A stretch of 64,000 bases of DNA from NCBI GenBank assembly GCA_001771585.1, contig MEUE01000003.1, forward strand, positions 248,001 to 312,000, in the 5' to 3' direction. Positions within the stretch are counted from its first letter, which is position 1; every line of letters begins with the position of its first letter. The notes below the pieces were generated by a model. The model was not told where the DNA came from. It saw only the letters and a program-made list of their open reading frames with translations, and searched no databases. Positions 15,092 to 48,500 of the stretch are shown here, one piece after another. The position numbers and the translations under genes were made by a program. This stretch comes from a candidate division WOR-1 bacterium RIFOXYB2_FULL_46_45 (GTDB lineage Bacteria; Margulisbacteria; WOR-1; XYC2-FULL-46-14).

Positions 15092-16114
15092 ATGAACATC
15101 AACTCGCTCCTCCCCCATGAAATAGCGGAGGGCTTCCGCGGCAAGCAGGTCTTCTCCTGGCTGCACAAACAGCTGGTAACCGATTTTGCCCTGATGACCA
15201 ATCTTCCGAAAGCGGACCGTGAAAAATTGTCCGAAAACTTTACGATCCTTGTTCCAAAAATCGTTAAAATACAAAAATCGTTTGACGGGACAAAAAAATA
15301 TCTGCTGAATTTTGGGGAGGACAAGATCGAAACCGTCCTCATACAGGACAAAAGCGGCCGGAAGACCATCTGCGCCTCGACCCAAATCGGCTGTCCGCTG
15401 ACCTGCCGGATCTGCGCGACCGGAAAAATGGGCTTCAAGCGCAACCTGACCGCGGATGAAATTATCGCCCAAATCGAGCTGGTCTACCGCGAAAACGACG
15501 GAGTTGAAAACGTGGTCTTCATGGGGATGGGAGAGCCGCTGCTTAATTTGGAAAATGTTTTAAAAACCATCGAGGTCATCAACCATGAGAAGGGCCTTAA
15601 TATCGGGGCGAGAAAAATCACCGTCTCGACCGCCGGGATCCCGCATAAAATTATAGAACTCGGCAGTTACAAGAAACAGATCCGCCTGGCCGTCTCCCTC
15701 AATTCCCCCTTTGACGAAAAACGCTCGGCAATCATGCCGATCAATAAAAAATATCCCCTCCCGCTCCTCTTCTCCGCCATAAAAAAATATATCGATCTCT
15801 CCGGCCGCCGGGTCACCTTTGAATATGTTTTGATCCGTGATTTTAACGACCGGGAAAGGGACGTTGAAGCGCTTTGGAAACTCTGCAAGGATTTAAACGT
15901 CAATATCAACCTTATCCCGCTCAACCCAACCGGAAAATCCAAATATGCCCCCTCCAGCCAAAAGATTTCGGAATGGTTCGCAAACCAGCTGAAACAAAAC
16001 GGGATCAACGCGGTTGTGAGAAGAAGCAAGGGGATGGATATTTTGGGAGCGTGCGGACAGCTGGCGGCTAAAGGCTCCGGTCAACCTCCCGTGCCACCTC
16101 AAAGCCGTCATTAA
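15092..16114 (+). CDS. rlmN: 23S rRNA (adenine2503-C2)-methyltransferase RlmN
   Basis: STQIGCPLTCRICATGKMGFKRNLTADEIIAQI; NVVFMGMGEPLLN. Confidence 0.97.
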   Translation: MNINSLLPHEIAEGFRGKQVFSWLHKQLVTDFALMTNLPKADREKLSENFTILVPKIVKIQKSFDGTKKYLLNFGEDKIETVLIQDKSGRKTICASTQIGCPLTCRICATGKMGFKRNLTADEIIAQIELVYRENDGVENVVFMGMGEPLLNLENVLKTIEVINHEKGLNIGARKITVSTAGIPHKIIELGSYKKQIRLAVSLNSPFDEKRSAIMPINKKYPLPLLFSAIKKYIDLSGRRVTFEYVLIRDFNDRERDVEALWKLCKDLNVNINLIPLNPTGKSKYAPSSQKISEWFANQLKQNGINAVVRRSKGMDILGACGQLAAKGSGQPPVPPQSRH

Positions 16115-17264
16115 TCGCCCGAACGATCAGGGAAGGTCCGGTCTTCATGTCTCCCGCACAAAACTTTTCTTTCGGCTCTTCTTTTAAAAAACCGAGGGCC
16201 AAAATGACCAGGTCGGCCTCAATTTCAAATTCCTCTCCGGTTTCCCTGTTTTTGCAACGGATGGATCGTACGGACAGATCGCGATCTGTCCCTACAAACC
16301 TCTTTGTTTCAATTGACCATTTCCGTTCGCATCCCTCTTCATGCGAAGAGGAGGTCTTGACAATCGGCGGGCAAGGCAATAATTCGATCTGGACAACGCA
16401 TCTGGCTCCCTGACGATTGGCGGTCCCGACACAATCGGCACCGGTATCGCCGCCGCCGATCACAACCACCTTTTTGCCCTTTGCGTTCCCATTGCCGGTT
16501 AAAAAATCCATCGCAAAATAGATGCCCTCCAATTCACGGCCGGGAATTTTTAAATCCCTTGGCGTTAGCGCGCCGCAGGCCCAGATGACCGCGTCAAATC
16601 CGTCCGGATTTTTTTTGATATTTTTTTCGGTTTTAAAGACGATTCCTTCCTGTTCCCAAATTTTTATTCGGCGATCTAAAATATGTTTTTCCAATTTAAA
16701 TTCCGGGATCCCGTAACGCATGATCCCGCCGATCTTATCGTCTTTTTCAAAAACCGTAACCAAGTGCCCCTTTCGATTTAAATGGACCGCCGCCGACAAT
16801 CCGGCCGGACCGGAGCCGATCACCGCCACTTTTTTTCCGGTACGTTTCTTGGGGGGACGCGGCACAACCCAGCCCTTTTTGAAAGCGTGTTCAATAATCG
16901 CCAGCTCATTGTCTTTTATTGTTACCGGATCATCGTTAATCCCCAAAACGCAGGCGGCTTCGCAAAGGGCCGGGCAGACCCGGCCGGTCACTTCGGGGAG
17001 GATATTGGTCGCTTCCAAAAGCTCAAAGGCCTTTTTCCACTGGCGGTTATAAACCAGGTCGTTCCACTCCGGAATATAGTTGCCGATCGGACAGCCAAAG
17101 TTACAGAACGGGGTCCCGCAATCCATGCAGCGGCTCGACTGCTCTTCGGAATCGCGGTCGGAGCGCAGGGTAAAAACCTCATTGTAATCTTTCACCCGTT
17201 CGCAAACCGGACGATAGCCGCAAGTTTTCCTTTTTACTTTTAAAAATCCTTTTGGATTACCCAT
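16068..17264 (-). CDS. gltD: glutamate synthase small subunit
   Basis: [64 protein letters not shown]. Confidence 0.95.
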
Positions 17265-20200
17265 CTCCCACCTCTAGCAATTCAATCTCTTCTTCGGTCA
17301 ATACGCGTTTATATTCGATCGGCATCACTTTCACAAAACGTTTGATCTCGGCTTTAAAATCGTCTAAAACGGCCTTAGCAATCGGACTGCGGGTATATTT
17401 AAAATGGTTTTCCAATAGCCGCTTAACCGTTTTCTGGTCACCCAAACTTAATTCTTCAAGCTCAACCATCGCCTGATTACATTTTGGTTCAAACTCGCCA
17501 AGTTTGTCATAGACATAGGCGATCCCCCCCGACATCCCCGCCGCGAAATTCCTTCCGGTCGGCCCAAGAATAACCACTCTCCCTCCGGTCATATATTCGC
17601 AGCCGTGGTCGCCCACCCCCTCCACCACCGCGTTGACCCCGGAATTACGAACGCAAAAACGTTCTCCTGCCATTCCGCGAATGTAGGCCTCGCCACGGAT
17701 CGCCCCGTAAAAAGAGGTGTTGCCGATAACAATATTTTTTAGCGGCGAATGGATGATCAGCTTCCCGCCAAACATCCCTTTGCCGACATAGTCGTTGGCT
17801 AAACCATCCAGTTCAAAAGTTATCCCGGGAGCAAGCCAGGCGCCAAAACTCTGTCCGGCACAGCCGGTAAATTTGAACCGGAGCGAATCTTCCGGCAGGC
17901 CTTTCTCTCCGTGTTTTTTACAAATCTCGCCGGACAACATCGCGCCGACGCTCCGGTCGCTGTTTTTTATTTTATATTCCCCGCTCCCCTTTTTGATCAG
18001 CTCGCGGTCAAGAATTTTTTCGATTCCGTGCTCCTGTTTTTGCGTGCAATGGGATTCCCCTTTCGGACGATATAAAATTTTCGAATAATCCAGCCCTTTT
18101 GCTTTCCAAGGAAGAAGTTTTTCGTCAACTTCCAGAAGATCGGTCCGGCCGACCAATTCATCTATCGTCCTTATCCCAAGCAACGCCATCGTCTCCCGCA
18201 AATCGCGGGCCAGGAAATTAAAGTAATTGATAATATATTCCGGCTTGCCGCGGAACCGCTCCGCCAAAACAGGGTCCTGGGTGGCAACACCGACCGAACA
18301 GTTATTTAAATGGCAATGACGGAGCATGACACAGCCGGAAATAATCAGCATCGTGGTCGCAAAACCGAATTCTTCTGCGCCGAGCATCGCCGCGATCGCG
18401 ACATCCCGTCCGGTCCTGATCTGCCCGTCGGTTTGCAGGCGGACCCGGCTGCGCAAATTATTTAGGACCAGGGTTTGATGCGTTTCGGCTAAACCGAGTT
18501 CCCAGGGAAGCCCGGCGTGGCGGATCGAGCTGATCGGAGAAGCACCGGTCCCCCCCTCTCCGCCGGAGATCAAGATCATATCGGCATGCCCCTTGGCAAC
18601 TCCGGCCGCGACCGTCCCCACCCCGATTTCGGAAACCAGTTTCACCGAGATACGGGCGGAAGGATTCACATTCTTTAAGTCAAAAATTAATTGCGCCAGA
18701 TCTTCGATCGAATAAATATCGTGATGCGGCGGAGGAGAAATTAGAGTTACCCCTTTCGTCGTGTAACGGGTCTTGGCTATAAGGGCAGAAACTTTATGTC
18801 CGGGAAGCTGGCCCCCTTCTCCCGGCTTGGCCCCCTGCGCGATTTTTATCTGCAGCTCATCGGCATTGACCAGATAATTGGTTGTTACCCCAAAACGGCC
18901 GGAAGCAACTTGTTTGATCGCGCTGCGGCGGTTGTCTTTGAAGCGGGCCGGATCCTCTCCCCCCTCCCCGGTATTTGATTTTCCGCCGATCGCGTTCATA
19001 GCGATCGCGATCGTCTCATGGGCGGGACCCGAGATTGAACCGAAGCTCATCGCTCCGGTGGCGAAACGTTTCATTATGCTTTCAACCGGTTCCACTTCTT
19101 TAATCGGGATAGCTTTAGCGGCTTTAAATTTAAAGCTGCTGCGCAAGCTGGTCGGCTGTTTTGATTGGTCGTCGATCAAGCCGGCAAATTCTTTATACCT
19201 GCCGTAATCATTGTTCCTGGCCGCGTCCTGGATAGCGGAAATTGATTCCGGGTTCCAAAGATGAAATTCGCCGTCTTTGCGCCATTGGTAAATCCCGCCG
19301 GTATCAAGGAGATCGGATCCGTTTTCGGCAAAAGCCGCTTGATGCCTTAGCTGTGTCTCCTTTTCAATGATCTCAAAGCCGGCGCCGCCGATTCTTGACG
19401 GCGTCCCTTCAAAACATTTTTTAATAACTTCGTCCGACAAACCGAGCGCTTCAAAAATCTGCGCTCCCCGGTAACTGTTTAAAGTCGAAATCCCCATCTT
19501 TGAAAGGATCTTTTTGAGCCCCTTGTTGACCGCCTTGCGGTAATTGTTGACCGCGGTCGTTTCGTCAAGAAATAAGCTCCCCTCATCGACCAGCAGGCCG
19601 ACCGCCTCATAGGCCAAATAGGGATTGACCAGGTCGGCCCCGTAACCGAAGAGGAGGGCAAAATGATGGACCTCCCTCGGCTCTCCGCTTTCTATAATAA
19701 TCCCGACTTTGGTCCGCAGCGCTTTGCGGACCAGATGCTGGTGGACCGCGCCGACCGCCAGCAGTGCCGGAATGGCAGAGTGTTTCTTGTCCACTCCGCG
19801 GTCGCTCAAGATAAGAAAGGTGGATCCATCGTTAATGGCGGCTTCGGCTTCGGAACAGATCGCGTCCAACGATTTTGGCGACACGATTGATATGGTTTTC
19901 GTCTTAAAACCGTTTTTTTGGATCGAACGGATCCGCTCCAGTTCTTCGTTCAATAAAATCGGCTCATGGACCCGCAATTTACGGCAATGTTCGGGTGATT
20001 CGGACAAAATATCCCTTTGCGGACCGACATAACTTTCCAGACTCATCACTACCTCTTCGCGGATCGGGTCGATCGGCGGATTGGTGACCTGCGCGAACAG
20101 TTGCTTGAAATAGTTGTAAAGGAGCTGCGGCCTTTGCGACAAGACCGCGTGCGGCGTGTCGTTCCCCATCGATCCGACCGGCTCCTGTCCCTTTTCCGCC

Positions 20201-21591
20201 ATCGGTTTTATGATTATTTTCAAATCTTCGCGGGTGTAACCGAATGATTTCAATTGTAGAGACAGGTCGCGGCCTGTCCTTACGGACGATCCGGTTTTAT
20301 GCAGATCATCCAAATCAACCATATTTTCCGTCAACCATTGCCCGTAAAAACGGCTGGAATAAATTTCTTCTTTAATTTCGTCGTCTTCCACGATCCGGTT
20401 GGTTTCGGTGTCGATATAAAACATCTTCCCCGGTTCCAGCCGTCCGGAATATTTGATCTGTTCGGGTTTTATATCCAAAACCCCGACTTCGGATGCCATC
20501 ACTACCAGGCCGTCGTTGGTGACAATGTAGCGGGCCGGACGCAGGCCGTTGCGGTCCAAGACCGCGCCGACATCTTTCCCGTCGGTAAAGGCGATCGCCG
20601 CCGGACCGTCCCACGGCTCCATGAAACAGGCATGATACTTGTAAAAATCGCGGACCTCTTTGCGCATCAAATTGTCGTGCTCCCACGCGCCGGGGATCAG
20701 CATCATCATCGAATGGGCCATTGAGCGACCGGATAAGGTCAGAAGCTCAAAAACATTGTCGAGCGCGGCGGAATCGGAACCGCCGGGAACGATCACGTCA
20801 ATCCCGCGCGCCCGCATCCAATTGATATTCCCGCGCAGGGTATTTATTTCTCCGTTATGCGCTAAGAACCGAAAGGGCTGGGCCAAATCCCAGGTCGGGA
20901 AAGTGTTGGTCGAGTAGCGCGAATGGATGAGCGCGATCGCGCTTTTGAAGTCGGGATCTTTTAAATCAAGAAAAAACTCTTCAACCTGTTCCGCCATCAG
21001 CAGGCCTTTGTAGGCAACGGTCCGCGAAGAGAGGTTTAAGATATAAAAACTTTCGGCCTTTATCTCTTTTTCAATTTTCCGGCGGATCGCGTACAGCTTC
21101 CGTTCAAATTCAAGCCGGGTATTCACCCTTTTTCCTTTAAAGATAAAGACCTGTTCGATCACCGGCCTGGTTTTGCGGGCGCTCTCCCCTATTTCAGATT
21201 CATTGATCGGAACTTTTCGAAAACCGAGCAAGACCTGGCCTTCTTTTTCGACAATTTTTAAAAAGGCCTCTTTAACCGCTTTGCGTTCTTCTTTGTTTGG
21301 AGGAAGAAAGAGCAGTCCGGTGCCGTAGGATCCGAATTGCGGAAGTTTGGGGAAAACTTTTTTATAAAAATCGTGGGGGATCTGAACCAAGATCCCGGCG
21401 CCGTCGCCGGTCTGGGGATCGGCTCCCACCGCCCCGCGGTGTGAGAGGCGCTTTAGGATTTGGAGCCCTTTTTCTACAATGTCGTGGGATTTTTCGCCTT
21501 TGATGCTGACGACAAAACCGACCCCGCAGCTGTCATGCTCGAAAGCCGGAGAATATAAACCCTCTGTTTTATATTTTTCATATCCCAACAT
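17257..21591 (-). CDS. gltB: glutamate synthase large subunit
   Basis: [12 protein letters not shown]-terminal nucleophile, full GltB domain set. Start moved from 21672 to ATG 21591 because the upstream extension is repeat-derived. Confidence 0.95.
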
Positions 21592-21606
21592 TTTCAACAC
21601 CTTTGT

Positions 21607-21654
21607 TTTAGGGGCAGGCCCAAAGGTGTTGAGCCCAAAAGCCATGCCCCTAAA
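21607..21654. repeat. inverted repeat TTTAGGGGCA...TGCCCCTAAA upstream of gltB
   Basis: 10-bp perfect arms; interlocked with second IR CAACACCTTTG (21595-21605)/CAAAGGTGTTG (21621-21631). Confidence 0.8.
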
Positions 21655-21687
21655 TAAAAATCCAAATGACAAAATCCCAAATCCAAA

Positions 21688-23013
21688 CTAAAGGATTGGC
21701 AGATATTTTTTAATCTCGTACTCTGTAACCTGGATACGGAATTCGTCCCATTCCTTTTTCTTTAATTCGATAAAGCGGTTAAAGGTGTGATCTCCCAGCG
21801 TTTCACGCAGGAAGTCACTCTTTTCGGCAATTTCAATCGCCTGTCCCAAACTGGCCGGCAGTGATTGGATCCCGCGTTCCGCTCTCTCTTCATCGGTTAA
21901 ATGATAAAGGTTGAGTTCCATCGGCTCTTGTAGTTTATACTCTTCTTCGATCCCTTTCAAGCCGGCCGACAACATCACGGCCAGCTGGAGGTACGGGTTG
22001 CCGGACGGATCGGGGCAGCGCAGTTCCATCCTGGTCGCTTTTTCCGCTCCCGGTTTGTACATCGGAACGCGGATCAGGGCCGAACGGTTCCGTCTTGACC
22101 AGGCGATATAGACCGGAGCTTCGTAGCCGGGGACCAATCTCTTGTAAGAATTGACCCACGGGGCTAAAACCGAGATCATCTCCGGAGCGAACTTTAAAAT
22201 TCCGGCGATATAAGATTTACCGGTTGCCGACAGGTGATATTTGTCTTTGGCATCGTAGAACGCGTTGCTTGAACCTTTGAACAAGGACTGGTGGCAGTGC
22301 ATTCCGGAGCCGTTCTGTCCGAACATCGGCTTGGGCATGAAGGTGGCATAGACGCCATTGGCGGAAGCGACCTCTTTTACCGTCAAGCGATAGGTCACCA
22401 TGTCATCAGCCATTTTTAAGGCATCATCATAACGCATATCAATTTCATGCTGTGACGGAGCGACTTCGTGGTGGGAATATTCGACATTGATCCCCAGTTT
22501 GCGCAGGGCCAAAACCGTATCGCGGCGGAGGTTAGAAGCCATATCAAGCGGGGTTAGATCAAAATAACCACCCTCGTCCAGGATCTCGGTCCCTTTTGAA
22601 TCTTTGAAATAAAAATATTCCAGTTCCGGACCGACGTACATGTGATCAAAACCCATCTTCGCCATCTTTTTTAAAGCTCTTTTCAAGATGTAGCGAGGAT
22701 CACCTTCGTACGGCTTGCCTCCCGGCTGAAGGATATCGCAGATCATCCTGGCGACCGCCTTTTCCTGCGGCCTCCACGGGAGTATCTGGAAAGTATTCGG
22801 ATCGGGCATCGCGATCATATCCGACTCTTCGATATCTTGGAACCCGGTAATGGAAGAGCCGTCAAAGCCCATCCCGTCGGTCAGGGCCCCCTCCAGCTCC
22901 TCTTTTCCGATCGAAAAACTCTTCAGAATCCCGTTGACATCGGTAAACCACAATCTAATAAACTCGACATCGTTATCCGCAACCAGCTTCATAATCTCTT
23001 CTTTACTTGGCAT
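21688..23013 (-). CDS. glnA: glutamine synthetase type I
   Basis: MPSKEEIMKLVADNDVEFIRLWFTDVNG..., GMGFDGSSITGFQDIEESDM, NRSALIRVP; start revised to MPSKEE with AAGGAGG. Confidence 0.97.
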   Translation of the reverse strand: MPSKEEIMKLVADNDVEFIRLWFTDVNGILKSFSIGKEELEGALTDGMGFDGSSITGFQDIEESDMIAMPDPNTFQILPWRPQEKAVARMICDILQPGGKPYEGDPRYILKRALKKMAKMGFDHMYVGPELEYFYFKDSKGTEILDEGGYFDLTPLDMASNLRRDTVLALRKLGINVEYSHHEVAPSQHEIDMRYDDALKMADDMVTYRLTVKEVASANGVYATFMPKPMFGQNGSGMHCHQSLFKGSSNAFYDAKDKYHLSATGKSYIAGILKFAPEMISVLAPWVNSYKRLVPGYEAPVYIAWSRRNRSALIRVPMYKPGAEKATRMELRCPDPSGNPYLQLAVMLSAGLKGIEEEYKLQEPMELNLYHLTDEERAERGIQSLPASLGQAIEIAEKSDFLRETLGDHTFNRFIELKKKEWDEFRIQVTEYEIKKYLPIL

Positions 23014-23040: not shown

Positions 23041-23058
23041 TAGCAACTTCTACGCCAG
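23041..23058 (-). promoter_or_regulatory. sigma54 promoter of glnA: TGGCGTAGAAGTTGCTA
   Basis: GG-N10-GC (consensus TGGCAC-N5-TTGCW) about 30 bp upstream of revised ATG. Confidence 0.75.
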
Positions 23059-23078
23059 CCAATCCAAGGGGAAATCCG

Positions 23079-23119
23079 ACAATTTTGTAGAAACAGAGGC
23101 CAAACCGCAACATTATTGT
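23079..23119 (-). promoter_or_regulatory. upstream boxes ACAATAATGT (23110-23119) and ACAAAATTGT (23079-23088) of glnA
   Basis: Two ACA-N4-TGT boxes 31 bp apart; same arrangement in two other promoters here. Confidence 0.65.
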
Positions 23120-23128
23120 CTTATTGTC

Positions 23129-23185
23129 TTATAATGCCGTCGTTCCCCTCTCCTTGGTACTGATCCTTATCGCCTCATCGACCGT
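23129..23185 (-). pseudogene. PII (GlnB/GlnK) C-terminal remnant, TVDEAIRISTKERGTTAL*
   Basis: 18 codons matching the C-terminus of PII at 25427; ends abruptly at the large repeat. Confidence 0.85.
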
Positions 23186-23737
23186 GGGACTGTCGCGAAA
23201 TAAATAAAATCCGACTAAAGAAACAACAAGAAGCATATGGGTTCCGCCCCTAGCTGGTTAAGCGACAGAAACTGGAAGCATTTACTCCTTTTACCCCGGT
23301 CCATTTTCTTTTTGGTCGGCGTGCAAAAAGAAAATGGACGAAAAGAAAAACACGCTCTTTCGCAAGCAAACACCGCCCCGCGTCCCCTTCTCCGCCACAA
23401 CCCCGCCTGTTTCGTCCCACCGGGAGCGGGACTCATCAATGCCCCTACCCATCCCTCTGTGCTTGCGGAGCTGCTTTGCTTTCTCATAACATGATCGAAA
23501 AATATAAATGTACCGCGATTTCCATTTACCTTATTTAGATGGGCGGGGTGAGGCCATAGGCGATCCCGAGCGGAGTCGAGGGAGAGACTGGGGAGGATGG
23601 CGCGGGTGAGGTTGGGCGGTGAAATTTGGAAATCGCTTGACTTTTATTTGTTACTTCCTTTGTGTCAAGACAAAGAAAGTAAAAAGAAAATTATCTTTTC
23701 CTTCCTATTTTACGGGGTAGTTTAATTTGGGAAATTT
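23186..23737. repeat. large structured dispersed repeat, copy 1
   Basis: Blocks shared with 44607-45100: GGGACTGTCGCGAAATAAATAAAATC..., 16-bp perfect hairpin, GCGATTTCC/GGAAATCGC stem, ATGGGCGGRGTGAGGCCATAGGCGATCCCGAGCGGAGTCGAGGGAGAGACTGGGGAGG. Confidence 0.9.
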
Positions 23738-23796
23738 AGGGTGAAATAATGTGGGTGGTAACATTTTATTTTAATGTCTTTACTGAGCCGTATCCG

Positions 23797-24192
23797 TTAT
23801 TTCTTAAGTTCGTTTACTATTCCCTGCGTTATGTATTTTATCAAGCGCCAAGACGGCAAAATAATTAACCAAAAGATAGCAATTCCACCAAATATAATAT
23901 AAAGTGTTTCCACAAAATCCCTTGATGAAAACTTAGTACCGTAATTGGCCATGAGAGCGATCAACAAAATCCATAAGCCAACCCAAATCAGACTAATAAT
24001 AATGGGGATTCGCCTAGATCCTACAGGATTAAGCAAGTTATTGTTTTCTGTGAAGGAAAGAATATTCTTGGATATTAGTTTGCCAAATCCTATTGCAATG
24101 GTAATTATAAAAACAAATAAAAACAGGTTCACTGGGAAAATATTCATTTTTGAATATCTGTAAAGGTATAAAGGTAAATACCAATCATTCAT
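23797..24192 (-). CDS. hypothetical multi-TM membrane protein
   Basis: 131-aa ORF with several hydrophobic segments; AT-rich. Confidence 0.55.
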   Translation of the reverse strand: MNDWYLPLYLYRYSKMNIFPVNLFLFVFIITIAIGFGKLISKNILSFTENNNLLNPVGSRRIPIIISLIWVGLWILLIALMANYGTKFSSRDFVETLYIIFGGIAIFWLIILPSWRLIKYITQGIVNELKK

Positions 24193-24329
24193 AGCTTCTA
24201 TCTATTATATATCTGTCATTTTCTGTGTCAATTGGGGTAATTTAATCACTGACAAAAAAAGCATCCTCTCTTCTAGTCTTCGATGGATGGGATGTAGGAG
24301 AAACATCCAAATTCTGATAAAATTAAATC

Positions 24330-25253
24330 ATGATAAAAGACAACACCGTGTTAATCCTAGGAGCAGGGGCAAGCGCCGATTATAACTACCCTACCGGGCT
24401 AAAGCTTAAAGATGATATTGTAAGAAACCTTGCTCCTGGCTCCAATAATTATTGGCTTGAGATTTTTGATATTGTTAATATTAGAAGAGAAGAAATTCAA
24501 GAATTCACCAAAGCATTAAGTCATTGTGGTTTAGATTCGATCGATACCTTTTTAGAACGGAACCCCAAATACCATAAAATTGGCGTGCTAGCTATTGCGA
24601 TTGGAATAACTCGAAAAGAAAATGCACAAGAAAATGGTTTTTTTAGGACAGATCGTTATAATTGGTATCAATACCTTTATGGCAAACTGGATGCACCATT
24701 TGATGATTTTGAAAATAATAGATTATCTATTATTACGTTTAATTATGATAGATCTTTGGAACATTGCTTATTTACATATTTTAGGAATACACACTTAAAT
24801 AAGAGCATTGAAGAATGTGCTCAAAAATTCATGACAATCCCCATTATTCATGTATACGGTAAGCTAGGCAATTTGCCTTGGCAGGACAACAAAGACACGC
24901 GCGAATACACAAACTTTTCGGATGAAATACAAGGGGTGATAGATGTAAGTAAAAATATTAAAATACTATCCGAACGAGATACTATATCAGAAGACTTTAG
25001 AAAAGCGCACAAATTATTGTTTGGAGCATCAAAAATTATTTTTATGGGCTTTGGGTATAATGAAACAAACCTGATAAGACTTGGATTTGACCATCTTGAT
25101 TTTGGCGGAAGAATAAAAATTTTAGGATCATCCTACAATTTAACCCCCATACAAATAGATGTAATAGAAAATAAATTTAGAAGAAAAATAAAATTCCCAG
25201 AAAAAAGTCGTTTTAAAAAAAATCTAGAGTTCTTACAAAATATTGTGTTCTAG
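24330..25253 (+). CDS. SIR2-like domain protein
   Basis: VLILGAGASADYNYPTGLKL; IITFNYDRSLE; IHVYGKLGNL; IIFMGFGYNETN. Confidence 0.75.
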   Translation: MIKDNTVLILGAGASADYNYPTGLKLKDDIVRNLAPGSNNYWLEIFDIVNIRREEIQEFTKALSHCGLDSIDTFLERNPKYHKIGVLAIAIGITRKENAQENGFFRTDRYNWYQYLYGKLDAPFDDFENNRLSIITFNYDRSLEHCLFTYFRNTHLNKSIEECAQKFMTIPIIHVYGKLGNLPWQDNKDTREYTNFSDEIQGVIDVSKNIKILSERDTISEDFRKAHKLLFGASKIIFMGFGYNETNLIRLGFDHLDFGGRIKILGSSYNLTPIQIDVIENKFRRKIKFPEKSRFKKNLEFLQNIVF

Positions 25254-25307
25254 AATAATGTTGAGGCCCCAATTCTCCCCCCATTCCCTTTAAAAATCAA
25301 TACCTTA

Positions 25308-25432
25308 GTAGATCAGAATATCAGGGTATCAGTCGGTAGAGTATTAGAAAACAAGAATACCAGGGAACCCTGATATCCTGCTCCCTGGTATCCTGCCTAC
25401 TGATATTCTGATTTCCTGATAACCTGCTACAG
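25308..25432. repeat. ATCAGGATATCAG-type degenerate repeat tract, inverted arrangement
   Basis: GATCAGAATATCAGGGTATCAG... and ...CTACTGATATTCTGATTTCCTGATAACC. Confidence 0.85.
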
Positions 25433-25771
25433 CGCCGTCGTTCCCCTCTCCTTGGTACTGATCCTAATCACCTCATCAACCGTCGAAATAAAGATCTTCC
25501 CGTCCCCCATCTTTCCGGTTGAGCAGACCTCTTCAATAATATTGATCAGTTCGTTTAACTTATTGTCATCAACCACTATTTCCAGTTTTATCTTGGGGAG
25601 AAATTCAATCCGGTATTCACCGACCCGCCATTCAAGAGTTATCCCTTTTTGCTTCCCTCTCCCTTTAACTTCGGTAACGGTCATCCCAACAAAGCCTTTT
25701 TTATCTAAGGCTTCCCTTAAATCTTCCAGTTTTTCCGGACGGACAATCGCTTCTACCCTTTTCATTTTCAT
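25427..25771 (-). CDS. nitrogen regulatory protein PII
   Basis: MKRVEAIVRPEKLEDLREAL...GKMGDGKIFISTVDEVIRISTKERG. Confidence 0.95.
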   Translation of the reverse strand: MKMKRVEAIVRPEKLEDLREALDKKGFVGMTVTEVKGRGKQKGITLEWRVGEYRIEFLPKIKLEIVVDDNKLNELINIIEEVCSTGKMGDGKIFISTVDEVIRISTKERGTTAL

Positions 25772-25780
25772 CCCCTCCTT

Positions 25781-26992
25781 TTAAATGCTCTCGGCATGCT
25801 GAGAAATATCGAGCCCGACCAGTTCTTCGTTTTTCGAAACCCGCAGGCCAAAAAACATGTCAACCAGGGTTGCCAAAACGTAGGTCACAACAAAAGAGAA
25901 AACCGCGACAATGGCAACCGTAATAAACTGGATCCACAACAGGCCGGGATTACCAAACAATAAACCGTCCGCTCCGGCCGGATTGATTGCCTTACTGGCA
26001 AAAACACCGGTTAAAACAGCGCCCCACGCTCCTCCCATCCCATGGCAGGCAAAAGCATCCAGAGATTCATCTATCCTTAATTTCATACGCAGTACAATCA
26101 TATAATAAGAGATCATAGCCGCGCTGGCTCCGATAAAGATTGCGGCTAAAGGATCGACAAAGCCGGAAGCCGGTGTTATCGCGACCAATCCGACCACCGC
26201 TCCGGTCGCGACACCAAGTACCGACGGCCGGCGGTGCAGCCAGCTTAAAACCATCCAAGTCACTCCGGCAGCGGCCGCCGCGGTATTGGTTACGACAAAA
26301 GCCGAAACCGCCAACCCATTTGCCGCTAAGGCCGACCCGCCGTTAAAACCAAACCAGCCAAACCAAAGCAGTACCGCTCCTAAAACAACCAACGGAATAT
26401 TGCTCGGTTCCATATTATCTTTCCCATAGCCGATTCTTTTCCCGATAACCAAAGCGATGGCAAGAGCGGAAAATCCGGCGGTAACGTGGACAACTGTTCC
26501 TCCGGCAAAATCAAGGGCGCCAAAAGCTCTCAACCAGCCCCCTATTCCCCACACCCAGTGGCAGACCGGATCATAAACCAACGTCGCCCAGATGACGGAA
26601 AAAAACAGAAAAGAAGAGAATTTGATCCTCTCGACAAAAGCACCGACAATCAACGACGGGGTAACGATCGCGAAAGCGGCCTGAAAGATCATAAAGGCCA
26701 GGGCCGGGATTGTGGCGGCATAACCGGGATCGGGAAGCGCGCCGACTCCCGCCAAACCTAAGGCTTGCAACCCCCCGATTATTCCGCTCTTGGTCGGACC
26801 GAAAGCTAAAGTGTAACCGTACAAAACCCATTGCAGGCTGATAACCATCAAAACCGCGAAACACATCATGATGGTGGAAAGAATATTTTTCTTCCTGACC
26901 ATCCCCCCGTAAAAGAACCCGACCGCCGGAGTCATCAAGATTACCAGAGCCGTTGAAATCAGGATCCAAGCTGTATCACCGGAATTGATCAT
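25781..26992 (-). CDS. amt: ammonium transporter Amt
   Basis: GDTAWILISTALVILMTPAVGFFYGGMVRKKN...; start at MINSGD with AGGAGG. Confidence 0.96.
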   Translation of the reverse strand: MINSGDTAWILISTALVILMTPAVGFFYGGMVRKKNILSTIMMCFAVLMVISLQWVLYGYTLAFGPTKSGIIGGLQALGLAGVGALPDPGYAATIPALAFMIFQAAFAIVTPSLIVGAFVERIKFSSFLFFSVIWATLVYDPVCHWVWGIGGWLRAFGALDFAGGTVVHVTAGFSALAIALVIGKRIGYGKDNMEPSNIPLVVLGAVLLWFGWFGFNGGSALAANGLAVSAFVVTNTAAAAAGVTWMVLSWLHRRPSVLGVATGAVVGLVAITPASGFVDPLAAIFIGASAAMISYYMIVLRMKLRIDESLDAFACHGMGGAWGAVLTGVFASKAINPAGADGLLFGNPGLLWIQFITVAIVAVFSFVVTYVLATLVDMFFGLRVSKNEELVGLDISQHAESI

Positions 26993-27020
26993 AACTGTTC
27001 CTCCTTTATTAAAGGAGACA

Positions 27021-27037
27021 GCAATTTCCATTCCCGC
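27021..27037 (-). promoter_or_regulatory. sigma54 promoter of amt: GGGAATGGAAATTGCTG
   Basis: GG-N10-GC, about 30 bp from ATG. Confidence 0.65.
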
Positions 27038-27056
27038 GAAAACAGGCAATATTAAT

Positions 27057-27096
27057 ACAACTTTGTAGAATAACGCGATAATTACTACATTATTGT
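27057..27096 (-). promoter_or_regulatory. upstream boxes ACAATAATGT (27087-27096) and ACAAAGTTGT (27057-27066) of amt
   Basis: 30 bp start to start; 22 bp to -24 GG. Confidence 0.65.
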
Positions 27097-27097
27097 T

Positions 27098-27439
27098 TTA
27101 TCCGATCGCTTTTTTACCCCGCTCCCCCGTCCGGATCCTGACACATTCTTCAAGAGGAATGATAAAAATCTTTCCGTCGCCGATCTTGCCGCTTTTTGCT
27201 CCCTTCACTATCGCATCGACAGTAAGATCAACAAAGTCGTCGTTAACCGCTATTTCAAGACGTACTTTCTTAAGCAAATTTATTTCTTGAACCACTCCGC
27301 GGTAGGTTTCGGTGTATCCCGCCTGCTGTCCGCATCCCAGGGAATTAGTAACCGACAATTTATAAACCTTCGCCTCAAAAAGAGCCTGTTTCACGTCCGG
27401 CAATTTCTCCGGTTGAATAAAAGCCGTGATCAGTTTCAT
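27098..27439 (-). CDS. nitrogen regulatory protein PII, divergent T-loop
   Basis: [20 protein letters not shown]...[25 protein letters not shown]. Confidence 0.93.
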
Positions 27440-27457
27440 TTTTCATCCCTCCTTTTA

Positions 27458-28756
27458 TTATTGCGCGGTAAAAATCTGGAAACCGGCATAGGCTTCCATA
27501 CCGTGCTCGCCGATATCCAAGCCCCTCATTTCTTCTTCGGGAGAAACTCTTATCCCCAGTAAGGTTTTAATTAAAAACCAAACCGTTAAAGAGATCAACA
27601 GGGTAAAAGAGGCAACCGCCAAGACCCCCATAAATTGGGTGCTTAAAAGCTTAAAGCCGCCGCCAAAAAACAGCCCGTTTCCCGTGGTATTGGGCATAAA
27701 AATATCCTGGGCAAAAAGCCCGACCGCCAGAGTGCCAAACACACCATTCAAAAGATGGACCGACAGCGCCCCTACCGGATCGTCAAGTTTTAAGCGGTCA
27801 AAAAAGAGGACCCCTAAAACAACCAGAATACCGGCAATCCCGCCGATTATAAGGGAACTTAACGGAGAGATATAGGCACAGGGAGCGGTAACCGCCACCA
27901 ACCCGCCCAAACAGCCGTTGATGGTCATCCCCAGATCCGGTTTTCCGGTAATAAACCAGGCCAGCAAGGTGGAGGTTAAAATTCCGGCCGCGGCGGCTAA
28001 ATTGGTGGTAACCACAATCCTTGAAATGGCGTTAACATCCGCCGCCATGGTGGAGCCGGGATTAAATCCGAACCAACCGAGCCAGAGAACAAAGGCTCCG
28101 ATAGTTGCCAGTCCAATATTATGTCCGGGAATAGCGGAAGGAGAACCGTCTTTACGATATTTACCCAAGCGCGGACCGAGCATTAAGATTCCGGCCAAAG
28201 CGGCCCAACCGCCAACCGAATGCACTACCGATGAACCGGCAAAATCCCAAAATCCCAAAGCGGCCAGCCAGCCCCCGCCCCAAATCCAATGCCCAATAAT
28301 CGGATAAATCAGCCCGACCATAAAGAAAGAAAAAATAATGAAAGATAAATATTTAATGCGTTCCGCCACCGCCCCGGAAACGATCGTAGCCGCGGTCCCG
28401 GCAAAAACCAGCTGAAAGAAAAATTTTGCCAAAAGCGGCACCGAAGCCCATGAAATGGCCGAATAAACCCCCTGATAAGCCGCGCCGACGGCAGGGCTGT
28501 TGTCCGCTCCGGAAAGCCCGACTAATCCTTGCAGTCCAATTAACGGATTTCCGTTGCCAAACATTATGCCCCAACCAACCAGCCAAAAAGCGATTGAAGA
28601 AACGGCAAAGACAATAAAATTTTTGGATAAAATATTCACCGCGTTTTTGGCCCTGGCAAAACCGGTCTCAACTGCCGCAAAACCAAGATTCATAAAGAAG
28701 ACCAGCATCGCCGTAATTAAAACCCACATTGTATCGGCAATAATCTTAAACTCCAT
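27458..28756 (-). CDS. amt: ammonium transporter Amt, second copy
   Basis: [29 protein letters not shown]...[30 protein letters not shown]. Confidence 0.96.
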
Positions 28757-28774
28757 TTTTACCACTCTCCCTTT

Positions 28775-29431
28775 TTAAATATTGATATCCAACTGCGTCG
28801 TTACAGTCGGTTTCGCGCCGTTGTTGTATGTGCCGTAACCGAAAATCACCGAAGTGTTGGGAGCAAATATCCATGAAATCCCGTAAAAGGTGGCTCCCAG
28901 CACCGATTTGGAACCGGCGTAGTCGACGCAGGCCCACAATTTATCGGTAATTGTTTTGTCCCAGGTTAAGATCAAACCAGAATTTTCACCCGCCCCGAGA
29001 ACTTTCTCGTTACCGGAAAAATAACCAACCGATAAACGTCCCAGCGGAGTAGTTTTTGCAGCTACGCCATAAAGGACATTCTGGTCGGTGACCCCGCCTT
29101 TGGTCCCGAAGCCAAAGCCGCCAACCGCGACAGCGGGCAGGATCCCGTTTTCTCCAACACCGTATTTGGCATTAAAGGTAAACGGATCGGATTGAGGCAA
29201 GAAAACATCGGCACCGACTTCAAGACCTGGAAGCAGACCGTAAGTCAACCCAGTATCGGTTGGGAAAGCATAGCCTCCTTCTGCCGGTCCTTCCAAGGTG
29301 AAGTAATTGTCGATCCCAAAATGCCAGACCCCCAACGGCTGGATATCGGTCGACGGGTTCCAGATCTGGGTCGACGGAGTCGCGAACGCTACACTCTGCA
29401 ACAGCAACAAAGCAACCAAAACTTTTTTCAT
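28775..29431 (-). CDS. predicted outer-membrane beta-barrel/porin-like protein
   Basis: Signal peptide MKKVLVALLLLQSVAFA followed by alternating aromatic/Gly strands; first gene of amt2-PII2 unit. Confidence 0.6.
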   Translation of the reverse strand: MKKVLVALLLLQSVAFATPSTQIWNPSTDIQPLGVWHFGIDNYFTLEGPAEGGYAFPTDTGLTYGLLPGLEVGADVFLPQSDPFTFNAKYGVGENGILPAVAVGGFGFGTKGGVTDQNVLYGVAAKTTPLGRLSVGYFSGNEKVLGAGENSGLILTWDKTITDKLWACVDYAGSKSVLGATFYGISWIFAPNTSVIFGYGTYNNGAKPTVTTQLDINI

Positions 29432-29458
29432 TTTTGTTCCCCCCTTTGTCCTTAACAC

Positions 29459-29475
29459 AGCAATTTTGAGGCCAG
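29459..29475 (-). promoter_or_regulatory. sigma54 promoter of porin-amt-PII unit: TGGCCTCAAAATTGCTG
   Basis: TGGC-N7-TTGC, GG-N10-GC, about 30 bp from ATG. Confidence 0.78.
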
Positions 29476-29496
29476 GGAGTTTATGAGGGGGAAGAT

Positions 29497-29536
29497 ACGT
29501 TTTTGTTGAAAATGGGGAAGCGGGTTACATTATTGT
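29497..29536 (-). promoter_or_regulatory. upstream boxes ACAATAATGT (29527-29536) and ACAAAAACGT (29497-29506)
   Basis: 30 bp start to start; 23 bp to -24 GG. Confidence 0.6.
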
Positions 29537-34318: not shown

Positions 34319-34717
34319 TCAACCTTCTTCCCTGTTCACCCGACAATCGGCGTCATAGAGGATTTTAAAGTTTTCTGTTTCATCTTTTCTTGGGTGGTGG
34401 TGATGAGCAATAATATCCAAAACTTCGCTAATTTTCTCTTTGGGAAATTCTCTAATATTCTCCAAAATCTCTTTTGCAATCGGGGGGCCTTCTATTTCCT
34501 GATATTTTCCGGCGTTGGAATTATATTTTTTCTCCGCCTCATGGATCCCGATATCGTGTAAGATCGCCGCGGCAACAACAACATCCTCGTCTCCGCTTTT
34601 TCTTTCCATAAAAAGTTCTTCCGAATATTTGAGCACCTTCAAGGCATGATTGATTCTTTTTTGGTCATTGCCAAAATATTCCCGCATTGCTTGTATAATT
34701 TGGCCTTTGAGGTTCAT
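34319..34717 (-). CDS. HD-domain phosphohydrolase
   Basis: INHALKVLKYSEEL...ILHDIGIHEAE...IIAHHHHP. Confidence 0.85.
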   Translation of the reverse strand: MNLKGQIIQAMREYFGNDQKRINHALKVLKYSEELFMERKSGDEDVVVAAAILHDIGIHEAEKKYNSNAGKYQEIEGPPIAKEILENIREFPKEKISEVLDIIAHHHHPRKDETENFKILYDADCRVNREEG

Positions 34718-35441: not shown

Positions 35442-36932
35442 TTAAGCAGATAGCTTATACTTCTTAACCTTATATCCCAACATCCGTTCAGTGAGGCCCA
35501 AGGCTTTGGCCGCTTTGCGCTGGGATTTATATTTTATGAGGGCTTCCTCAATCTTTTGCTTTTCAATCGATTCCACAATCTTGGGGAGCGTCGTCCCCTC
35601 CGCCTTGACCTCCACATCCTTCGCCGATAAGTTGCCGGGCAGATCCCTGGGACCGATCAATTCTTTACCGCAAACAATCACCGCCCGCTCGATCACATTT
35701 TCAAGCTCCCGAACATTTCCCGGCCAATCATAGCCGATCAGCATATCAAGCGCCGCGCGGCTGACTCCCTCTATTTTCTTATTGTTCTCTTTATTGTATT
35801 TGTGCGTAAAGTGCGCCACCAGAAGGGGAATATCTTCTTTCCTGTCCCTAAGCGGCGGGATGGTGACCGGAAAAACATTGATGCGGTAGAAAAGGTCGCT
35901 GCGGAACTTCCCCTCTTTCACCATCTTTTCCAGGTTGCGGTGGGTCGCGCAGATGATCCGCACATCCACTTTGATGCTCTTGTTCCCGCCCAGCCGCTCA
36001 AACTCTTTCTCCTGCAGGACCCGCAGAAGTTTCACCTGCGTCGCGTGGGACAAATCGCCGATCTCATCAAGAAAAAGGGTTCCGCCGTCCGCCATTTCAA
36101 AACGGCCGGCCTTCCTCTCTATCGCCCCGGTGAAAGCCCCGCGTTCATAGCCGAAAAGTTCGGACTCGAGCAAATTCTCGGGCAAAGCCGCGCAGGCAAC
36201 CTTGATAAACGGACGTTCCGCTCTCGGACTGGCATAATGGATCGCCGCCGCGACCAGCTCTTTTCCCGTTCCCGATTCACCCTTCAGCAAAACATTGGCC
36301 TGGCTCTGCGCCACCTGCCGCGCGCCGTCCAAAACATTTTCCATAATCGGAGAAGTGAAAACAATATTGCCGAATTTGTATTTACCTTTGATCTGCTGTT
36401 TTAACTGGATATTTTCGGCGACCACCGCCTGCTTGTCCTTTTCCGCCAGTTCCCTGATCTTGACCGCCTGCCCCACCATCGCCGCGATGATCGTCAAAAG
36501 CTTGACGTCCTCTTCGTAAGAAATATCTCCTTTAAAAAGGTGGTCGACCGAAAGCGCGCCGGCCACTTTGTTGCCAATTTTGATCGGAACACAGAGAAAA
36601 GCGAATTTCCCCTTGCGGGCCTGGGTGCGGTTTAAAAAGAGCGGCTCTTCCCCGATATCTTTCACCACCATCGGCTCACCCGACTCAACCACTTTGCCGG
36701 TGATCCCCTCGCCGATCTTATATTTCCCGCGCTCTTTTTCTTCTCTGGTCAACCCCTGCGCCACTTCGATTTTTAATTCGTTGGTAAACGGATCAACCAG
36801 AGTGATCGTCCCACGCTCCATTTCGAGCGAATCGGAGAGGACCTTTAAGACAGAGGGAAGATTTTTTTCTATATCAAGTGAGGAAGATAGAATATTGCCG
36901 ATTTCCGCCAGTATCTTGACTTTTTTATCCAT
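35442..36932 (-). CDS. sigma54-dependent activator, GAF-AAA+-HTH (NifA-like)
   Basis: N-terminal GAF; ESGTGKE, GAFTGA, GGTLFLDEIGD; Fis-type HTH. Confidence 0.93.
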   Translation of the reverse strand: MDKKVKILAEIGNILSSSLDIEKNLPSVLKVLSDSLEMERGTITLVDPFTNELKIEVAQGLTREEKERGKYKIGEGITGKVVESGEPMVVKDIGEEPLFLNRTQARKGKFAFLCVPIKIGNKVAGALSVDHLFKGDISYEEDVKLLTIIAAMVGQAVKIRELAEKDKQAVVAENIQLKQQIKGKYKFGNIVFTSPIMENVLDGARQVAQSQANVLLKGESGTGKELVAAAIHYASPRAERPFIKVACAALPENLLESELFGYERGAFTGAIERKAGRFEMADGGTLFLDEIGDLSHATQVKLLRVLQEKEFERLGGNKSIKVDVRIICATHRNLEKMVKEGKFRSDLFYRINVFPVTIPPLRDRKEDIPLLVAHFTHKYNKENNKKIEGVSRAALDMLIGYDWPGNVRELENVIERAVIVCGKELIGPRDLPGNLSAKDVEVKAEGTTLPKIVESIEKQKIEEALIKYKSQRKAAKALGLTERMLGYKVKKYKLSA

Positions 36933-42193: not shown

Positions 42194-43177
42194 CTACCCC
42201 ACATCCCAAAAACTTTTAAGCAGCTTAAAATCAACCAGCGCGGTTAGTGCTTTGCTTTCGGTTTTGATGCCGACTTCTTCAACCGCCGCGATCGGATTAA
42301 GTCCGCCTAAGAAGACCAGCCCGACCCGCTCGGTTGCGACCGGAACCCCCAACAAGGGCTGTCCGGGCTTCCCAATAATCCAGGGTGAGGCCAAGCCGAC
42401 TTCGCGGGCTTTTTTTAAAATCTCTTCCGCTCTCTCTTTTGAAACCGCCGGAATCTCGCGAAAACCGGCCATCACCTTGCCGGAACCGGTGTTAATCACT
42501 CCGCGGATATCGGTCATCCGACTTTTTATAAATATTTCGAGAGGATCAAGCGTTGAGCCGGAATAACTGATCAGATCGGTAAACCGGAGCGGCTTATTAT
42601 CTTTGATCTCCAGTATCCCGCCGAATTTTGATTCGACCGGAATGGAATTTTTAAGGAGGATCCCGTTCAAATTGACCGCGCAGAGCGTCCCAAACCCGAT
42701 CTTCCCTCCCGGAACTTGAACCGAACCAATTGATTCCCCCTCTTGTGCCACCAAAACCATCTGCCCGGCGCTTAATTCGTTGTCAAAAACTTGCGCTAAT
42801 GTCTGCTTGGCCATTTGGAATTTGTCTTTTGGGATAAAAGAGACGTTTAAGATTACCTTCCCCTTCTTTTTATCCAGATCAAAGTCCATTTGATAGGCCA
42901 TGCTGTCCATTCGCGAAGAGACAAAACCGACTTTCTCGGAGACAAAAGAATTCCCCAGCTCCTCCACCCCTTTTTCGGTGATAATCCGCCCCTCTTTCCA
43001 CTTCCCCTCGGTCAATCCTTTTTCATCCAGCATCTGCATATGATAACGGACCGTCCGCTCTGACAAGTCGATTCCGAGCTCCTTCAATTTGTCCGAAATC
43101 TCCTTCGATCCGACCGGCTCTTTCGACTGCGAAATTATCTTTAAAATCGCGTTTATTTTGCGTTCTACCATACGCAT
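42194..43177 (-). CDS. NrpR-like transcriptional repressor (winged helix + DUF128-type domain)
   Basis: N-terminal wHTH KEISDKLKELGIDLSERTVRYHMQMLDEKGLTE; then VGFVSSRMDSMAYQMDFDL...GSVQVPGGKIGFGTLCAVNLNGILLKNSIPVESKFGGILEI. Confidence 0.8.
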   Translation of the reverse strand: MRMVERKINAILKIISQSKEPVGSKEISDKLKELGIDLSERTVRYHMQMLDEKGLTEGKWKEGRIITEKGVEELGNSFVSEKVGFVSSRMDSMAYQMDFDLDKKKGKVILNVSFIPKDKFQMAKQTLAQVFDNELSAGQMVLVAQEGESIGSVQVPGGKIGFGTLCAVNLNGILLKNSIPVESKFGGILEIKDNKPLRFTDLISYSGSTLDPLEIFIKSRMTDIRGVINTGSGKVMAGFREIPAVSKERAEEILKKAREVGLASPWIIGKPGQPLLGVPVATERVGLVFLGGLNPIAAVEEVGIKTESKALTALVDFKLLKSFWDVG

Positions 43178-44606: not shown

Positions 44607-45100
44607 GGGACTGTCGCGAAATAAATAAAATCTGACCAAAGAAACTATAAGAAGCAGGGGGTTCCGCCCCTAGCTGGTTAAGCGACAGAAACTGGAAACA
44701 CTTACTCCTTTTACCCCGGTCCATTTTCTTTTTGGTTGCGCTCAAAAAGAAAATGGACGAAAAGAAAAAAGCGCTATCTCGCAAACAAACACCACCCCTC
44801 CAATCCCTTCCCCAAAAACCGCCCCTGCCAGCTCAGGAGGAACCTTCGCTATGCCCTTTGCCCATCCCTTGGTGTTTGCGGAGCTAATCTATTTCCCAAA
44901 ACATGATCGAAAAATATTCGGAAAATATAATGTACCGCGATTTCCATTTACCTTATTTAGATGGGCGGAGTGAGGCCATAGGCGATCCCGAGCGGAGTCG
45001 AGGGAGAGACTGGGGAGGGGCTGTACGGGTGAGGTTGGGCGGTGAATATTGGAAATCGCCGGGATTTTTTTCTTTACAGGATAGTTTAATTTGGAAATTC
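44607..45100. repeat. large structured dispersed repeat, copy 2
   Basis: See copy 1; same order of blocks and stems, variable interior. Confidence 0.9.
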
Positions 45101-45187: not shown

Positions 45188-45217
45188 TTGACTTACGGCA
45201 ATCGATTGCCGTATAAT
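45188..45217 (+). promoter_or_regulatory. gdhA promoter TTGACT-18-TATAAT with 20-bp perfect palindrome TACGGCAATCGATTGCCGTA (45194-45213)
   Basis: Direct sequence; palindrome fills the spacer and touches the -10. Confidence 0.8.
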
Positions 45218-47159: not shown

Positions 47160-48500
47160 TTATAACGCTTCCAAATACTTCTCAATCTCCCACGGGGTAA
47201 CCTGCATGCGGTAGTCGTCAAATTCGGCTAATTTGGTCTTATAAAACTGGTCAAAAGTGTGTTTGCCCAAAGCGGCTTTAATTGTTTCATCGTTTGCCAG
47301 CTCTTCGATCGCCCGCTTGATTGAAAATGGGAGCATCCCGATATTGAGCTCCTTCAACCGCGAAGAATCAAGCTTGTAAACATCCTCTTCAACCGGCTTG
47401 GGCGGCTTTGCCCCCCCTTTTATCCCCCCCAACCCCACCATCAGCATAGAAGCAAAAGCAAGATAGGGGTTGCAGGACGGATCGGGACAACGCAATTCCA
47501 AACGGGTCGACTGTTCGCGTCCCGGAGAATATCTGGGAATCCTGATTAGTGCCGAACGGTTGATCTGCGCCCAGCAGATATAAACCGGCGCTTCATAGCC
47601 GGAGACCAGCCGTTTATATGAATTGACCGTCGGCGCCAGGATTGCCGTCAGCGCCCGGGCATGTTTGAGCTGTGCCGCCAAAAAACTATAAGCAATTTCC
47701 GAAAGTTTATACTTATCTTTTGGATCAAAAAAGGCATTCTTCCCCTTCTTGTTAAAAAGCGACTGGTGGACGTGCATCCCGTTCCCCGCTTCGCCGAATA
47801 ACGGTTTGGGCATAAAAGAAGCATACAGGCCGTGCTGGGCGGCGATCGATTTGATCACGTACTTTAAAGTGATCGTGTTATCTGCAGAAGAAAGCGCGTC
47901 GGAATACTTGACGTCTATCTCATGCTGGCCGGGGCCGACTTCGTGGTGAGACATCTCCGAGGTCATTCCCATCGCTTCAAGGGCGTAAATAATATCTTCA
48001 CGGACTTCAGAAGCCAGGTCGCGCGCCGGATAATCAAAATAGCCGCCGATATCGTGGGGAACGGTGGTGATCTTGCCGTCTTCCCGCTTCAACAGATAGA
48101 ATTCAACCTCGGGGCCGGTATTATACTCATATCCCATCTTCCCCGCCTCGGCAACCGCCCGCTTTAAAATACTGCGCGGATCGCCCTCAAACGGAATCCC
48201 CTCCGGAGTATGGACATCACAGATAAACCGGGCCGACTTTTTCCCCTCAATTTTCCACGGAATAACTTGATAAGTGGATGGATCGGGACGGAGGATCATA
48301 TCCGATTCGCAGATCCGCATAAAACCCTGGATCGAAGAGCCGTCAAACCAGATCCCTTTTTCCAATATATCCTGCAACCGCGCGATCGGGATCGTGACGC
48401 ACTTCATCATCCCTAAAATGTCGGTGAACTGTAGAAGAATAAACCGGATTCCGTCGGCCTTGGCCCTTTTTAAAACATCATGCTCTTTTGCTCTCAACAC
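47160..48500 (-). CDS. glnA: glutamine synthetase type I, second copy
   Basis: GIWFDGSSIQGFMRICESDMILRPD; GNGMHVHQSLF; NRSALIRIPRY. Confidence 0.96.
   Translation of the reverse strand: MLRAKEHDVLKRAKADGIRFILLQFTDILGMMKCVTIPIARLQDILEKGIWFDGSSIQGFMRICESDMILRPDPSTYQVIPWKIEGKKSARFICDVHTPEGIPFEGDPRSILKRAVAEAGKMGYEYNTGPEVEFYLLKREDGKITTVPHDIGGYFDYPARDLASEVREDIIYALEAMGMTSEMSHHEVGPGQHEIDVKYSDALSSADNTITLKYVIKSIAAQHGLYASFMPKPLFGEAGNGMHVHQSLFNKKGKNAFFDPKDKYKLSEIAYSFLAAQLKHARALTAILAPTVNSYKRLVSGYEAPVYICWAQINRSALIRIPRYSPGREQSTRLELRCPDPSCNPYLAFASMLMVGLGGIKGGAKPPKPVEEDVYKLDSSRLKELNIGMLPFSIKRAIEELANDETIKAALGKHTFDQFYKTKLAEFDDYRMQVTPWEIEKYLEAL

Follow-up and report, generated by a model that had tools for sequence, protein, structure and literature searches.

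Which protein reads a pair of palindromic boxes that stands before three nitrogen operons of the candidate division WOR-1 bacterium RIFOXYB2_FULL_46_45? The operons lie on the minus strand of one 64,000-nt stretch (contig MEUE01000003.1, positions 248,001 to 312,000; hereafter the window), where the promoters of glnA-gltB-gltD, amt-PII and porin-amt-PII each carry two ten-base ACA-N4-(T/C)GT boxes and a sigma54 -24/-12 element. An earlier sequence-only reading had described this architecture and suggested that a NifA-like protein encoded at 35442-36932 (the 35442 protein) binds the boxes. Comparative footprinting supports that suggestion, and in our assessment the boxes are, with high probability, upstream activating sequences (enhancers) of this activator.

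Three operons share a two-box sigma54 promoter

The boxes and sigma54 elements are present as quoted in the sequence-only reading (Table 1). The gap between the boxes is 20-21 bp (30-31 bp start to start), and box 2 is separated from the sigma54 element by 22-23 bp. Specifically, the layouts are ACAATAATGT-21-ACAAAATTGT-22-GG for glnA (23119-23041), ACAATAATGT-20-ACAAAGTTGT-22-GG for amt-PII (27096-27019) and ACAATAATGT-20-ACAAAAACGT-23-GG for porin-amt-PII (29536-29458), placing the box centres near -52 and -82 if GG is taken as -25/-24. The GG-N10-GC elements have the TGGC/TTGC-like cores of sigma54 promoters and lie a short distance 5′ of their genes. The likely start codons of glnA, amt and porin are 3′ of those set by the open reading frame (ORF) finder, and the revised starts result in short leaders with a purine-rich ribosome site. 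A sigma54 reading presupposes rpoN, which the genome encodes (G000:C1:385966-386424).

The motif is limited in this genome to these nitrogen operons. Across the whole genome (1,698,899 bases), a relaxed two-box pattern matched the three promoters and one dissimilar site only, and a one-box plus sigma54 pattern matched the same three promoters and one site within a coding ORF. An order-2 Markov simulation of the window gave 0.005 expected occurrences per 64 kb, against 3 observed. The three promoters are the only convincing examples of the architecture in the 1.70-Mb genome.

The box is conserved across the class

The comparison set comprised 31 genomes of the same class. Matches to the two-box pattern occurred in 6 of them, with one control match, while the one-box plus sigma54 pattern gave 45 sites in 24 genomes, against 1 for the reversed pattern. 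Once promoters were read directly, box plus sigma54 promoters were found in 28 of the 31, the remainder being G001, which has no ortholog of the activator, and the incomplete G010 (71%) and G015 (69%). Most matches are 5′ of amt, porin, glnA, type-III glutamine synthetase (GS) or gltB; a few look like chance, for example the ones within a phosphate-permease-like gene and 5′ of a short unrelated ORF. The conservation that the sequence-only reading had left to be checked is thus present, and across the class the motif is nearly confined to nitrogen genes. In the phylum outside the class, the strict two-box pattern gave one match (G055) that lacks an A/T-rich box and is probably due to chance.

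We performed an unbiased dyad scan (64 trimers × 21 spacers, 1344 dyads) on 39 promoters of relatives from 23 genomes, with the window excluded. The two top-ranking dyads, TAC-N6-GTA (p 6e-52) and ACA-N4-TGT (p 1e-37), stand far above any dyad outside the same palindrome. A consensus built from 67 boxes, (C)TACAAAAwTGTA(G), refines the box to TACA-N4-TGTA, its centre rich in A/T. The spacer of four bases is rigid, with 43 occurrences in 41 promoters versus 0-1 for neighbouring spacers. Among the 39 promoters, the boxes are 29-33 bp apart in 16 cases, in another 6 they are 17-21 bp apart, and 13 promoters have a single box within 100 bp. The 30-31 bp spacing noted in the sequence-only reading therefore holds for the three promoters of the window and does not extend to a general rule. 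A rigid box that occurs singly or in pairs two or three helical turns apart is as expected of independent dimer sites on one DNA face.

The classical NifA site is TGT-N10-ACA. It is not enriched here, occurring twice in the 41 promoters versus 43 times for ACA-N4-TGT, in agreement with the earlier proposal of a different operator. Boxes 20 bp apart create TGT-N10-ACA between them (for example L208); this form is absent from 30-bp pairs, and the rigid unit is therefore taken as ACA-N4-TGT.

A NifA-like activator is the best candidate binder

The 35442 protein, as anticipated, has the domains of a one-component sigma54 activator: an AAA+ sigma54-interaction domain with GAFTGA and a C-terminal Fis-type helix-turn-helix (HTH), both typical of enhancer-binding proteins (EBPs), with a GAF domain in place of the receiver domain of NtrC. 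It scores just below the cut-off of the NCBIfam NifA equivalog model (528.8 versus 528.85 bits), the C-terminal part of which it leaves unmatched, and its best match in the PDB is 9qq6, a chain named Nif-specific regulatory protein (residues 2-491). Named close relatives belong to Candidatus Margulisiibacteriota (candidate division WOR-1, Saganbacteria). A link to nitrogenase was rejected, as no nifH scored above the cut-off in the 31 class genomes, its own genome included.

Orthologs spanning the full length of the protein, with 70-81% identity in most class genomes, are nearly universal in the class, and their genes often directly adjoin the amt operon. In G030, a box pair starts ~12 bp past the end of the match to the activator gene. 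The recurrent gene order is glutamate dehydrogenase (GDH; divergent), nrpR, PPDK_N protein, activator, porin, amt, PII, glnA, gltB. G001, which is 94% complete, lacks both the activator ortholog and box plus sigma54 promoters.

The boxes also occur beside relatives of the activator in other phyla. In regions of 400 bp on each side of the genes for 74 more distant relatives, ACA-N4-TGT pairs at two- or three-turn spacing are found in 10 regions, whereas none of the 63 other trimers gives more than 1. Similar pairs flank relatives in Omnitrophota, Nitrospirota, Spirochaetota and Desulfobacterota. If one half-site may be degenerate, pairs at exactly 30 bp include those of Omnitrophota (L197, L198), Spirochaetota (L209, L220, L224) and a Deltaproteobacterium (L247), and 20-bp pairs those of Nitrospirae (L207, L208). 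The pair in Termititenax (L222) lies 5′ of the activator gene, which suggests autoregulation. Box 2 lies ~60 to 130 bp from the sigma54 element in the other-phyla loci, versus 20-45 bp in most of the class; the distance varies, as it does for an enhancer. Over all loci, box 2 stands ~24 to ~130 bp 5′ of GG. Relatives adjacent to efflux genes (L252, L265) have no pair in their flanks.

Three observations make the 35442 protein the best candidate binder, with the boxes very probably its sites: its gene neighbourhood, the co-absence in G001 and, in other phyla, the recurrence of the boxes next to its relatives. Several points weigh against this assignment. The association of box and protein is one of neighbourhood and co-occurrence; the activator is near-universal in the class, so that co-absence amounts to one genome; and many desulfobacterial relatives have no flanking pair. 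Moreover, G010 has the activator, yet its amt box is degenerate. Box 2, near -52, is closer than many bacterial enhancers, and two weaker sigma54-activator matches exist in the genome beside four others that were read.

Those further activators bear on the foremost alternative, that an NtrC-type two-component response regulator binds the boxes. The genome encodes at least four further AAA+ activators, and NtrC-type regulators control such genes in proteobacteria. However, their genes are away from the nitrogen operons, the four that were read, judged by eye, carry receiver domains and differ in their recognition helices, and in other phyla the boxes are again found next to relatives of the 35442 protein. 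We consider this alternative unlikely.

NrpR forms a separate circuit

The neighbourhood holds a second nitrogen regulator, overlooked in the sequence-only reading: an NrpR-type repressor at 42194, with MJ0159 as a relative in the PDB. The boxes could then be operators through which NrpR blocks the activator or polymerase at nitrogen plenty, as would suit palindromic operators and a regulator of the same neighbourhood conserved beside the activator. NrpR has, however, a predicted operator of its own. In genomes with nrpR and GDH as divergent neighbours, the intergenic region contains ACGGYAA-N4-TTRCCGT within a sigma70-like promoter. This site occurs once per genome in 17 of 17 NrpR-bearing genomes and in the incomplete G018, and in none of the 13 others (Fisher p 7e-8), and it was in the GDH promoter region wherever it was read. 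Its core shares the GGNN-N6-NNCC layout of archaeal NrpR operators, described as GGAA-N6-TTCC (PMC2723118) and GGTA-N6-TACC (PMC3177094).

The boxes do not have this layout and are independent of NrpR presence: 13 genomes without NrpR, including G029 (96% complete) and G027 (100%), have boxes. With its own operator elsewhere and boxes in genomes that lack it, NrpR was rejected as the box binder, a role we regard as very improbable. Since NrpR has its own site and the boxes are independent of it, two regulators very probably work side by side in separate circuits, NrpR at GDH and the NifA-like activator at amt, GS and glutamate synthase (GOGAT). Separately, amt and PII directly follow nrpR in G001 (L117, 4968-10947), as though control of amt had passed to NrpR.

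The least probable alternative, that the boxes arose by chance or are general A/T-rich sites of an architectural protein with no specific regulator, has in its favour the A/T-rich centre, but chance is rejected by the genome-wide scans, the reversed-pattern controls and the simulation, and the rigid spacer, the limitation to nitrogen promoters and the conservation across phyla argue against both forms.

Genes around the promoters

The features of the window are listed in Table 1. The porin-like protein has no Pfam or NCBIfam match, and a porin-like gene 5′ of amt is also found in relatives. A fragment resembling the 3′ end of a PII gene (23134-23190, compare 25427-25485) lies 5′ of glnA, and in relatives PII is directly 5′ of glnA; the cluster was therefore probably split here by a later insertion or duplication between PII and glnA. 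An ORF at 24330-25253, starting MIKDNTVLILGAGASADYNYPTG, is inserted between glnA and PII; it has no Pfam match and may be SIR2-like. A non-coding stretch, ACATGATCGAAAAATAT...GGAGTCGAGGGAGAGACTGGGGA, lies 5′ of both glnA (23488-23640) and GDH (44900-45080) as a dispersed repeat.

A second type I glutamine synthetase (47160-48500), near nrpR and GDH also in relatives, has no box plus sigma54 promoter in the one-box genome scan. In many relatives, the gene for the PPDK_N-domain protein (38014-40470) lies between nrpR and the activator gene; that for an HD-domain protein (34319-34717) adjoins amt or glnA in some (G030, G012, G005).

Table 1. Promoter elements, genes and the predicted NrpR operator of the window (64,000 nt; positions count from its first letter)
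Feature	Position	Strand	Remarks
glnA promoter box 1, ACAATAATGT	23110..23119	-	sequence reading
glnA promoter box 2, ACAAAATTGT	23079..23088	-	sequence reading and one-box scan
glnA promoter sigma54 -24/-12 element, TGGCGTAGAAGTTGCTA	23041..23057	-	sequence reading
amt-PII promoter box 1, ACAATAATGT	27087..27096	-	sequence reading
amt-PII promoter box 2, ACAAAGTTGT	27057..27066	-	sequence reading and one-box scan
amt-PII promoter sigma54 element, GGGAATGGAAATTGCTG	27019..27035	-	sequence reading
porin-amt-PII promoter box 1, ACAATAATGT	29527..29536	-	sequence reading
porin-amt-PII promoter box 2, ACAAAAACGT	29497..29506	-	sequence reading and one-box scan
porin-amt-PII promoter sigma54 element, TGGCCTCAAAATTGCTG	29458..29474	-	sequence reading
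gltD-like glutamate synthase small subunit	16068..17264	-	Fer4_20 and pyridine nucleotide reductase
gltB, glutamate synthase large subunit	17257..21672	-	
glnA, type I glutamine synthetase	21688..23013	-	start set at ATG 23013
PII signal protein, amt-PII operon	25427..25771	-	
amt, ammonium transporter, amt-PII operon	25781..26992	-	start set at ATG 26992
PII signal protein, porin operon	27098..27439	-	
amt, ammonium transporter, porin operon	27458..28765	-	
Porin-like protein, porin-amt-PII operon	28775..29431	-	start set at ATG 29431
NifA-like one-component sigma54 activator	35442..36932	-	GAF, AAA+ with GAFTGA, Fis-type HTH; proposed box binder
NrpR-type nitrogen repressor	42194..43177	-	PF01995, E 1.9e-84; separate circuit, rejected as box binder
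Predicted NrpR operator, ACGGCAATCGATTGCCGT	45195..45212	.	between -35 and -10 of GDH promoter; separate circuit

Proposed mechanism

We infer that the 35442 protein binds the DNA and activates the three operons as follows. One activator dimer would occupy each palindromic TACA-N4-TGTA box, so that a pair of dimers would sit on the same face of the DNA, mostly at a distance of three helical turns and sometimes of two. From the paired dimers the AAA+ ring would assemble and, at the -24/-12 element, remodel sigma54-RNA polymerase. The operons for ammonium uptake (porin, amt), for PII sensing and for the GS-GOGAT pathway would thereby be switched on jointly, presumably under nitrogen limitation. 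By analogy with NifA proteins, the signal may be 2-oxoglutarate and/or PII, acting on the GAF domain.

Relation to known systems

Paired enhancers in sigma54 nitrogen regulons are of a known kind. At the enterobacterial glnA enhancer, NtrC binds paired sites about three helical turns apart before a sigma54 promoter, with the same kind of targets; NtrC is, however, a phosphorylated response regulator with a different site, whereas the 35442 protein lacks a receiver domain and carries a GAF domain instead. The likeness to NifA lies in the GAF-AAA-Fis architecture and in upstream sites before sigma54 promoters; here, in contrast, no nifH scored above the cut-off, the genes controlled would be amt, PII, GS and GOGAT, and the boxes have the form TACA-N4-TGTA.

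A one-component nitrogen EBP has likewise been predicted in Desulfovibrio. DVU1949 of Desulfovibrio vulgaris is a predicted one-component GAFTGA activator with a regulon of nine operons for nitrogen metabolism and transport, and is proposed to be autoregulated (PMC4641369). The likeness is one of description, and DVU1949 is itself a prediction, in another phylum; if it is orthologous and has the same motif, the operator would already have been described in one lineage. Leptospira EbpA, a GAF-type EBP, drives amtB with RpoN and is needed under nitrogen limitation (PMC12655853); it too resembles the 35442 protein by description only, and it is described with two GAF domains. The GraR box of Staphylococcus aureus, ACAAATTTGT, is a ten-base palindrome of ACA-N4-TGT form (PMC3128592), but GraR is a two-component regulator of unrelated genes (mprF, dlt, vraFG), and the likeness is in sequence form only. 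Two comparative EBP papers give many motifs as TGT-N9..12-ACA, and our literature search found no paper with a TACA-N4-TGTA operator for a sigma54 activator. What appears to be new is the unusual NifA-like operator of this sigma54 nitrogen regulon.

The analysis offers uncultured phyla a defined operator and a candidate regulator of nitrogen control, neither of which we found for them in the literature searched, so that in many metagenome-assembled genomes the ammonium-assimilation regulon is predicted by a single pattern. It also raises a question of recognition, namely how a NifA-type HTH would read ACA-N4-TGT rather than TGT-N10-ACA. Two nitrogen regulators of different origin share one neighbourhood and would act at separate sites: the activator, and a bacterial NrpR whose operator is of archaeal type. 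More broadly, we give roughly even odds to the proposal that a widespread one-component NifA-like family, found in Margulisiibacteriota, Omnitrophota, Nitrospirota, Spirochaetota and Desulfobacterota, replaces NtrC as the master switch of ammonium assimilation, with an operator class of its own (paired TACA-N4-TGTA, two or three turns apart) unlike the described NifA and NtrC sites and, in Margulisiibacteriota, beside an archaeal-type NrpR circuit. Such a switch would mark a widespread nitrogen-control circuit.

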